From: an uncultured Candidatus Poseidoniales archaeon
GTDB lineage: Archaea > Thermoplasmatota > Poseidoniia > Poseidoniales > Thalassarchaeaceae
Reading direction: 5' to 3'
Assembly: GCA_902625325.1 (NCBI GenBank)
Contig: CACOAW010000001.1
Span: 1-64,000, forward strand
Length of the DNA stretch: 64,000 bases
Shown: positions 20,889 through 24,275 of the stretch, one piece after another
Numbering within the stretch: position 1 is the stretch's first letter
Layout: every line of letters begins with the position of its first letter
Translations under genes and position numbers: made by a program
Notes under the pieces: model-generated
Databases searched by the model: none
What the model saw: the letters and a program-made list of their open reading frames with translations, nothing else
Told to the model about the DNA's origin: nothing

Positions 20889-20983
20889 CCAGTAGAGTGA
20901 TTCAAATCATATCATTAGTTCGCGCATTCGTGAATTCGGACTTCTCAGTCTCTGAGCGTAATTGGCGTGAAGAACTATCAAGA

Positions 20984-22132
20984 ATGTCAATTCCAATTTC
21001 AGTCAAAAATGACGTTTTACTTAGCAAAACCCTTCAGAGTTTAATCAAAGATGGACGGGTAACTTGTGAGCTGGGAGAGAAATTGCATGCTAACGCCCAA
21101 CTGCCCGGCCTTACAGCCCTAGCGATGATGATCAAAAAGGCAAGGTTTGGAGATAGTATCTTTTTCAATGAAAACCTCCATGTAAATACAACGAATGTCT
21201 GCACTCTTGCATGTAGATTCTGCGCTTTCAGAAAGGGTCCAAGGCACAGAGATGCATATTCTCTTACTCCCGAAGAGTTCGTATCCAGGATAGAACCATA
21301 TGAAGGGAAAATCGACGAGGTGCATGCAGTGGGTGGGCTCCACCCAGATTGGGACATAAATCACTATTCAGAGTTTTATCGAATTACCAAGGAGAGGTTT
21401 CCTGGATTAAGCATCAAGTCATTAACTGCTGTCGAAGTAAAGCATATTGCATCCAAATCTGGATTGGGGGTACTGGAAACACTGACTATTCTGAGAGATT
21501 CAGGCCTCGATTCCCTACCAGGAGGAGGGGCAGAGATTCTTGTAGATACTATCAGGGATCGTATTTGTATGGGTAAGGAGAAGTCTTCCGAATACTTGGA
21601 AATACACGGTATTGCACACGAATTAGGAATCCCAACAAATTGTACCATGCTTTTCGGAACCATCGAAACAATCCAAGATCGCATCACTCACCTGAACAAA
21701 TTGAGAGAACAGCAAGACTCCACTGGAGGATTCCAGTGTTTCGTACCATACCCGTTCCTTAAGGATAATTCAAGATTGCCGGAGGCACGACTAGCATCAG
21801 GCGAGGAAGTAATCCGAGTAATCTCCGTTTCTAGGATAATGCTTGACAATATTCCCCATATCAAGGCTTACAGGATGAATATTGGAGATCATCTTTCGAC
21901 AATTGCAATCAACTCTGGAGCAGATGACATAGACGGAACTGTCGGTCACGAGGAAATAATGCATGTCGCAGGTAGTACTACAAGTTTGAACTACGACTCA
22001 AACAAGCTAGGAAACCTCATTGACTCTGCAGGCCAGAATCCTATAAAGAGAGACTCCACATATACGAGATTCGAGCCTTTGAAAATCAAATCAAGAAGAG
22101 AGAGCAAACTCCTTCCAATAATAGGTCAGTGA
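20984..22132 (+). CDS. mqnE: Aminofutalosine synthase (radical SAM)
   Basis: The 382-residue protein from ATG 20984 has the radical-SAM cluster CTLACRFC, the AVGGLHPDW segment and GLDSLPGGGAEIL, all typical of MqnE. It joins 3-enolpyruvyl-benzoate to S-adenosylmethionine, giving aminofutalosine. A GTG at 20897 would add 29 poorly conserved residues. It is followed 4 nt later by mqnA, whose product supplies its substrate. MqnC-like proteins share the fold, but the second radical-SAM gene in the window (57922) fits MqnC better. Confidence 0.93.
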   Translation: MSIPISVKNDVLLSKTLQSLIKDGRVTCELGEKLHANAQLPGLTALAMMIKKARFGDSIFFNENLHVNTTNVCTLACRFCAFRKGPRHRDAYSLTPEEFVSRIEPYEGKIDEVHAVGGLHPDWDINHYSEFYRITKERFPGLSIKSLTAVEVKHIASKSGLGVLETLTILRDSGLDSLPGGGAEILVDTIRDRICMGKEKSSEYLEIHGIAHELGIPTNCTMLFGTIETIQDRITHLNKLREQQDSTGGFQCFVPYPFLKDNSRLPEARLASGEEVIRVISVSRIMLDNIPHIKAYRMNIGDHLSTIAINSGADDIDGTVGHEEIMHVAGSTTSLNYDSNKLGNLIDSAGQNPIKRDSTYTRFEPLKIKSRRESKLLPIIGQ

Positions 22133-22136
22133 ACCC

Positions 22137-22934
22137 ATGTCATGGGACGGAGTTCTTGGCAGAGTTTCGTTCATCAACTGTGATCCGGTTTTCCACACGA
22201 TTCCTGACAATTGGAAGGTTCTCTCCGCACCTCCGTCTTGGTTGACTGGTCATCTACTACGTAGGGACTGCATCACTGCCCCAATTCCAACAGCCGACTA
22301 TGCATCCAATGTGGGAGAATTTAACCTCATCAGGGATATAGGAATAGTGGGCCGCGAGTCTGTTGGATCGGTTCTTCTATTCGGAAAAAGGCCCATTGAG
22401 ACAATGAGGGACATCGCATTACCCTCAGACTCCTCGACTTCCAATATGCTGATGAGATGGATACTAAAGCAGAGGGGTCTCGATCCGAAATATGTTAAAA
22501 TGGGGCCTGACATGGATTCAATGCTTGATGAATGCGATGGAGCACTAATAATTGGTGATCGAGCAATAGCCGCTGCCATCCATAACCCCGAGTTAGTTAG
22601 GATGGACCTCGGTAGAGAATGGGTGGAGATAACTGGTCTGCCAATGGTCTTCGGGGTATTCGCCGCTAGGAAAGACTCCAACGCCCATTCAATAAGCATG
22701 GCAAGAGAATTGATGCTAAGCAATTACAACATTTTTCTTGAACAAGAGGAAGTAAGGAATATTGTTATTTCCGACGCTTCCAAGAAGGTTAGCCTTTCTG
22801 TCGAAAGAGTGGCCGAATACTATGCCAGTGAAGTCTCTAATCTACTCAGTCCAGAGTCAATCAAAGGTTTGAGAGTCTTCCTAGAAGAGGTCTGCGAGGT
22901 AGAATCCAATCCGAACTGGTTCGACCACATTTAG
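22137..22934 (+). CDS. mqnA: Chorismate dehydratase (menaquinone synthesis)
   Basis: The 265-residue periplasmic-binding-protein-fold enzyme begins LGRVSFINCDPVF, like MqnA, and carries the SSTSNML and IGDRAI motifs of the family. MqnA dehydrates chorismate to 3-(1-carboxyvinyloxy)benzoate, the first futalosine-route step. It lies 4 nt after mqnE. Its TAG overlaps the convergent HEAT-protein stop by 4 nt (TTAG). Confidence 0.93.
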   Translation: MSWDGVLGRVSFINCDPVFHTIPDNWKVLSAPPSWLTGHLLRRDCITAPIPTADYASNVGEFNLIRDIGIVGRESVGSVLLFGKRPIETMRDIALPSDSSTSNMLMRWILKQRGLDPKYVKMGPDMDSMLDECDGALIIGDRAIAAAIHNPELVRMDLGREWVEITGLPMVFGVFAARKDSNAHSISMARELMLSNYNIFLEQEEVRNIVISDASKKVSLSVERVAEYYASEVSNLLSPESIKGLRVFLEEVCEVESNPNWFDHI

Positions 22935-23410
22935 TCAGAGTACTCGAGCTTCTTGCTTGATACCCAGTTTAGGAGATCTATGGCTACTTCGCAGGATTCC
23001 GCCACTACCACCTCTTCGTCCGATGCAAACTTTTCCAGCGTACTCATGGCGATCCTGTTCCCAATAGCGCCCAAGGCTTCTGCTGCCTCATGCCTTACCA
23101 TTACATCTTCCTCCAAATCCTCCAGTCTTTCAATTAGGTGAGGGACTGCATTATCATCCTGCATTTGTCCCAAAACATAAGCAATCTCGTGCTTTAGTAA
23201 GGCAGACGATGAGTCAAACGCGTCTGCCAGCGAATCCACAGCAGGCTTGCCTCCGATATTCCTCAATGCGAATAGAGCCCTCATCCTCTGAAACATCTTC
23301 TCGCCCTCGTCGCACAAGGTATCGCGCAGTTTCTCCACGTTTTCGGCATTGCTAGCAGGAGGGGCTGGATCAACCGATCCAAACTCGCTAATTTCGGGCC
23401 TTTCAGTCAT
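22931..23410 (-). CDS. HEAT-repeat protein resembling half of deoxyhypusine hydroxylase
   Basis: The 159-residue protein has HEAT-like repeats with two His-Glu pairs, H74-E75 in LLKHEIAYVLGQMQ and H107-E108 in VRHEAAEALGAIG, 33 residues apart. Eukaryotic deoxyhypusine hydroxylase (DOHH) has two such halves, each with two HE pairs at the same 33-residue spacing, binding a di-iron site. The flanking MRALFALRNIGG and VAESCEVA segments also match DOHH closely. A homodimer could rebuild the four-pair site. It overlaps mqnD by 8 nt (ATGACTGA), so it is cotranscribed. The alternative is a general HEAT scaffold. Confidence 0.8.
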   Translation of the reverse strand: MTERPEISEFGSVDPAPPASNAENVEKLRDTLCDEGEKMFQRMRALFALRNIGGKPAVDSLADAFDSSSALLKHEIAYVLGQMQDDNAVPHLIERLEDLEEDVMVRHEAAEALGAIGNRIAMSTLEKFASDEEVVVAESCEVAIDLLNWVSSKKLEYSD

Positions 23411-24275
23411 GCTCCCCAGCTCCAATGAACTTCAGAACACTAGCATCGAAATCACTCCTAACTAGGCCGAGCCCCACTCCCCTCTCAAGAAACATTCTAA
23501 CGGCCCTGCGGCCATCCTTACCATAGTCTATCGTTCGTCTGTTTACGTACATCCTTACGAACTCCTCGTTGGTGCCCTCGTCTATACCCCTCCCCCACTT
23601 TATTGCACCCTTTAGTGCATCCTTGGGATTTTCCAGTGAGAACTCGATGCTTCTTTTGATGTCGTCACAAACTTGTTCACACATCGACTCTCCTAGATCC
23701 TTCCTTACAATATTCCCGCCCAATGGGAGGGGCAGACCAGTCTCTTTGTTCCACCAGACGCCCAAATCTAAAACCATGAATGCGCCTTCGTCGGACCAAG
23801 TCAACTGACCCTCGTGAATGATTACCCCAGAGTCATACTTTCCATCCATTACCCCGGGAAGGATTTGGTCAAATGGGACCTCAACCACCTCTACTTCTCC
23901 CAAAGCTAGCACAAGAGCGAGATAAGAACTCGTACTCTTTCCGGGTACTGCAATTACTGACCTCTTTGCTTCTTCAATAGTCATTTCCTTTTTGGAAATT
24001 AAGATTGGTCCATACCCCTCGCCCATCGAGGCACCACAATTCATCAGATAGTAAGAATCAGAAATTTTAGGATAGGAATGAATGCTTACGGCAGATACTT
24101 CGAAACTCCCCATCTCTGCTTCTCTATTCAAAGTGTCAATATCAACTAGAATGTGTTCATACCTTCTGTTACCTGTGTCAATTGTCCCATTTGTCAACGC
24201 ATGGAACATGAAAGCATCATCAGGATCCGGGGAGTGCCCGATTCTGATGGTAACTGTGTCATCATTCATACCCAT
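23403..24275 (-). CDS. mqnD: 1,4-dihydroxy-6-naphthoate synthase
   Basis: The 290-residue periplasmic-binding-protein-fold enzyme begins IRIGHSPDPDDAFMFHAL, the MqnD signature, with VSIHSYP and GYGPILISK further on. It splits cyclic de-hypoxanthinyl futalosine to 1,4-dihydroxy-6-naphthoate. It is on the strand opposite mqnE and mqnA and carries the DOHH-like gene in its operon. The intervening futalosine enzyme MqnC is encoded 34 kb away in the window. Confidence 0.93.
   Translation of the reverse strand: MGMNDDTVTIRIGHSPDPDDAFMFHALTNGTIDTGNRRYEHILVDIDTLNREAEMGSFEVSAVSIHSYPKISDSYYLMNCGASMGEGYGPILISKKEMTIEEAKRSVIAVPGKSTSSYLALVLALGEVEVVEVPFDQILPGVMDGKYDSGVIIHEGQLTWSDEGAFMVLDLGVWWNKETGLPLPLGGNIVRKDLGESMCEQVCDDIKRSIEFSLENPKDALKGAIKWGRGIDEGTNEEFVRMYVNRRTIDYGKDGRRAVRMFLERGVGLGLVRSDFDASVLKFIGAGEHD

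Follow-up and report, generated by a model that had tools for sequence, protein, structure and literature searches.

In human deoxyhypusine hydroxylase (DOHH), two arms form a symmetrical dyad and cooperate to build the binuclear site (PMC8153317). The iron ligands are H56, H89, E90, H207, H240, and E241, and the substrate residues are E57, E90, E208, and E241 together with a glycine pair printed as G65/G214 (PMC9117371). Reviews and experimental papers report no known DOHH in archaea and treat the source of archaeal hypusine as unsolved (PMC5178350, PMC6105217, PMC7432094, PMC8153317). A hypusine route without a canonical DOHH has likewise been proposed for Trichomonas, according to the work cited in PMC6105217, in the form of a bifunctional DHS/hydroxylase. 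That enzyme is unrelated to the protein described here, which is a DOHH homologue encoded alongside DHS.

We analyzed a 64,000-nucleotide stretch of a contig from an uncultured Candidatus Poseidoniales archaeon, hereafter the window. It carries a half-size DOHH-like gene (half-DOHH) among menaquinone genes:

20897–22132 (+), radical-SAM MqnE/MqnC/CofH-type enzyme of the menaquinone cluster, from profile matches
22137–22934 (+), mqnA-like gene (PF02621), convergent, its end overlapping the half-DOHH stop codon region
22931–23410 (−), DOHH-like gene of half size; 159 codons and a stop, product with four HEAT hairpins (phmmer, AF2, Foldseek)
23087–23092 (−), His-Glu pair 2, H107-E108, mapping to human H89-E90 and H240-E241; invariant
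23168–23170 (−), G81, the substrate-side glycine, mapping to human G63 and G214
23186–23191 (−), His-Glu pair 1, H74-E75, mapping to human H56-E57 and H207-E208; invariant
23357–23377 (−), SVDPAPP segment, residues 12–18, aligned by phmmer with the inter-half linker just before the human DOHH C-half
23403–24275 (−), mqnD (PF02621), its 3' end overlapping the half-DOHH start by 8 bp

The ATG at 23410 gives the 159-residue protein; a TTG at 23425 could provide a longer one, but the homologues favor the ATG. The open reading frame contains H74-E75 and H107-E108, 33 residues apart, as the initial annotation had stated. The overlap with mqnD (ATGACTGA, 23410–23403) fits the co-transcription that it had also proposed. 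The radical-SAM enzyme scores under both the MqnE and the MqnC equivalog cut-offs.

The resemblance to eukaryotic DOHH, together with the conservation of the His-Glu pairs, is far beyond chance. In a phmmer search of all PDB chains, human DOHH (4d4z) is the best match (E=6.5e-74), followed by alphaRep designs. The archaeal protein aligns to both human halves, with 119 and 130 bits; it is 46.9% identical to the N-half over 128 aa and 50.4% identical to the C-half over 141 aa, whereas the two human halves are just 39.7% identical to each other. With 57 homologues as input, AF2 confidently predicts the monomer (pLDDT 89.8) as an arm of four hairpins, for which Foldseek again ranks 4d4z first (E=1e-10, TM 0.80; runner-up 1.7e-5). 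The likeness to eukaryotic DOHH (human 4D4Z, yeast Lia1), which the initial annotation had recognized and which both sequence and fold bear out, thus extends over the HEAT hairpins, the iron ligands, the substrate residues, and the SVDPAPP linker, at 47–50% identity to the human enzyme. In profile libraries, the protein matches only HEAT_PBS and HEAT_2, plus weak phycobilin-lyase matches far under the cut-off. HEAT_PBS repeats are shared with the phycobilin lyases and NblB (CpcE, CpcF), and we rejected such an identity on scores (41.7 vs a cut-off of 300; 27.6 vs 330) and on residues; the phycobilin-lyase-type structure 5n3u is matched by Foldseek at only E=2.5e-3. The alphaRep designs and MTH187-type HEAT proteins share the repeat fold, but the alphaRep alignments lack any His-Glu pair at the positions where those of half-DOHH are invariant.

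Residue mapping equates H74 with human H56/H207, H107 with H89/H240, and E108 with E90/E241 as iron ligands. None of the three varies among 57 diverse homologues, some as distant as 38% identity. On the deoxyhypusine side, E75 (E57/E208), E108 (E90/E241), and G81 are present and likewise invariant; our alignment places the human N-half equivalent of G81 at position 63, versus the printed G65. D14 and P15 of the SVDPAPP segment are also invariant among the 57 homologues. The family has 25 invariant residues. Both human halves share 19 of them, including every iron ligand and substrate residue, as a symmetric dimer would require. Canonical DOHH has eight hairpins and four His-Glu pairs per chain. 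Half-DOHH has four and two, and we therefore class it as a half-size homologue; the earlier reading of it as a DOHH relative holds, each chain having the iron and substrate residues of one complete arm.

The family was surveyed by a scan of genome contigs and a scan of 390 genomes of the phylum. Nearly all 80 loci kept from the peptide-pattern scan of the contigs came from marine group II/Poseidoniales/Euryarchaeota genomes. Altogether, 130 loci were extracted; they belong to Poseidoniales (marine group II archaea) and to six further families of Thermoplasmatota. Each is half-size (150–181 aa) and keeps both His-Glu pairs, the spacing being 33 residues in Poseidoniales and 32 in most families outside. 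Both Poseidoniales families have the gene, with a match in 39/55 and 57/72 sampled genomes, and the six other families contribute nine gene-bearing genomes. Apparent fused or full-length archaeal DOHHs of 666 and 320 aa (G013 and G037) proved to be only GC-rich reading frames lying upstream of an ordinary half-size gene. No viral or plasmid relatives of half-DOHH were found. Most genomes have a single copy. One (G161) has the locus twice, on contigs C29 and C55 (L127 and L128), probably through assembly duplication, and the copy of G106 is a pseudogene with two stops. In one genome of family f4, half-DOHH lies directly downstream of a gene for a VIT-family iron/manganese transporter (L113:3379-4158).

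The genome to which the window belongs encodes a true DHS, which matches a solved DHS with E=1.9e-77, and an aIF5A carrying SKPGKHGSAK, with the modifiable lysine. With DHS and an IF5A containing PGKHG, it has the predicted gene set for a deoxyhypusinated IF5A. A DHS paralogue (PF01916, 139 bits) adjoins an enolase-like gene on contig C4 (L132:1492-2433, minus strand). Half-DOHH, present in one copy, is the sole HEAT_PBS protein of this genome (79% complete), so that no other recognized gene supplies the missing half. Each chain brings one full complement of iron and substrate residues, so the four pairs would most naturally be assembled by a homodimer.

We therefore consider it likely that half-DOHH is a homodimeric, O2-dependent di-iron DOHH acting on aIF5A. 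Each 159-aa chain would provide one four-hairpin HEAT arm with one iron site (H74, H107, and E108) and one set of substrate residues (E75, E108, and G81). Two chains would pair about a two-fold axis, like the N- and C-arms inside a single eukaryotic chain, and the two irons would meet at this axis and bind O2 as a peroxo-di-iron species. The di-iron center would then act on Lys37 of aIF5A, hydroxylating the deoxyhypusine that DHS has formed there. The archaeal enzyme would differ from eukaryotic DOHH, with its two tandem arms, in having one arm and needing to dimerize; it also differs in adjoining mqnD.

Among Poseidoniaceae, loss of half-DOHH is accompanied by changes in aIF5A at −5 (K>T), +8 (L>I), and +24 (T>S). 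Nine of 10 genomes with Thr at −5 lack the gene and 45 of 49 with Lys have it (Fisher, p=5e-7 raw; p=4e-6 when unassembled loci are dropped and G106 is counted as a pseudogene). In a column scan of aIF5A and three neighbor genes in 36 genomes, these three columns are, by plain counts, those most tied to gene loss among 302. Under a phylogenetic dependent-versus-independent model they rank 1–3 of the 252 variable columns of the four genes, with likelihood ratios of 18–21 (3 df) that overstate independence, since some T-I-S alleles in genus g12 share synonymous sites and recombination may have spread them. Four g12 genomes (G053, G262, G343, and G092) have a related aIF5A allele in common, as judged from third-codon positions, which means that there was recombination. 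The gene-less T-I-S genomes sit in five places on the mqn-locus tree, that is, in five loss lineages, and at least three origins are independent on synonymous sites (the g12 group, G130/G341, and G360). In the second tree of the mqn-locus analysis, the label Dp is a mere default for G341, G343, G321, G133, G209, and G106. One genome, G295, has the T-form aIF5A yet keeps half-DOHH. In the other Poseidoniales family, all 20 aIF5As shown from gene-bearing genomes keep SKSKPGKHGSAK and HVGTVTD. In the gene-less genus g4 (L162, L163, and L243–L245), the loop is altered (with TKRKPGKHGAAK, and likewise MTKRKPGKHGAAK, in four of five), and HVAPVTD, within SHVAPVTD, replaces HVGTVTD. In these features g4 resembles the archaeal aIF5A 1eif. 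Losses without a change in the aIF5A loop also occur, in genus g5, G179, and G203 of that family, whose aIF5A is unchanged, and in G209, G303, and G106. We infer that aIF5A adjusts after the loss of the hydroxyl and that recent losses have not yet been followed by adjustment. This co-variation appears to tie half-DOHH to the expected substrate better than any neighbor gene does. Given its repeated loss, half-DOHH must be dispensable, just as yeast survives with a lia1 null mutation (PMC8153317).

The initial annotation had also seen in the linkage to mqnD a hint of a different oxygenase role. Half-DOHH would then be a homologous di-iron monooxygenase with another substrate, such as one from the metabolism of quinones or polyamines, in line with the mqnD overlap and with an adjacency conserved in both Poseidoniales families. 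Outside this order the adjacency is absent and the neighbors are unrelated. Five gene-bearing genomes have no PF02621 gene (G037, G063, G152, G214, and G301), and G301, which has lost mqnD, still has half-DOHH in its usual position. Conversely, mqnD occurs without an intact half-DOHH in G053, G057, G092, G130, G262, G352, G360, G303, G078, G127, G109, and others. Decayed relics of half-DOHH are found in G092, G209, and G203, with weak traces elsewhere. Mqn genes without half-DOHH also occur in family f27 (Thermoplasmatales-type) and in many Poseidoniales. The presence of half-DOHH is thus uncoupled from that of the Mqn genes, which places it outside menaquinone synthesis and led us to reject a futalosine pathway enzyme; the menaquinone link is positional. 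As E75, G81, and E108 match DOHH and the co-variation points to aIF5A, another substrate is unlikely, and the part of the earlier proposal that relied on mqnD falls.

Alternatively, the protein might be a remnant that has lost catalysis: a DOHH arm with at most one iron per chain, surviving as a HEAT scaffold or chaperone that binds aIF5A. Most of the HEAT_PBS family are scaffolds, and each chain has two His-Glu pairs only. However, a scaffold would not need the invariant H74, H107, and E108, and the occurrence of half-DOHH tracks the terminal oxidase. Outside Poseidoniales, a haem-copper oxidase is found in 9/9 gene-bearing genomes versus 74/263 overall (p=8e-6, uncorrected), and at the family level the association has p about 2e-4. 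The association does not hold in the other direction: families f27, f6, and f3 have the oxidase but no half-DOHH. We accordingly give little credence to a loss of catalysis. A heterodimer with a different, unrecognized partner, for which the asymmetry of the human halves (39.7% identity) could be a precedent, is very improbable given the single copy in most genomes and, in the genome of the window (79% complete), the lack of a second copy or second HEAT_PBS protein.

The homodimeric DOHH therefore remains our preferred reading, and its relation to the eukaryotic enzyme can be read in two directions. Half-DOHH is closer to the human C-half than to the N-half and carries the linker preceding the C-half. 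These features would fit a truncation, but also a gene predating the duplication, with the segment lost later from the first copy; a rooted tree comparing ancestral and truncated forms favors neither, with supports of 50–65%. It is thus only tentatively that we propose an archaeal O2-dependent hypusine pathway with a symmetric homodimeric half-size DOHH, ancestral to eukaryotic DOHH through tandem duplication and fusion, and an aIF5A loop that re-adapts once the enzyme is lost.

Searches of freely accessible journal articles returned no description of a half-size DOHH family. The three-site change in aIF5A accompanying gene loss in Poseidoniaceae and the confinement of half-DOHH, outside Poseidoniales, to genomes with a haem-copper oxidase are new. 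A half-size DOHH would leave the hypusine of Sulfolobus and of anaerobes unexplained. It is nevertheless a good candidate for the archaeal hypusine-finishing step: concrete, widespread in abundant marine archaea, and directly expressible and assayable. It may also represent the pre-duplication form of the eukaryotic enzyme, as retroviral protease compares with pepsin, and its family offers natural gene-loss lineages with matched changes in aIF5A.
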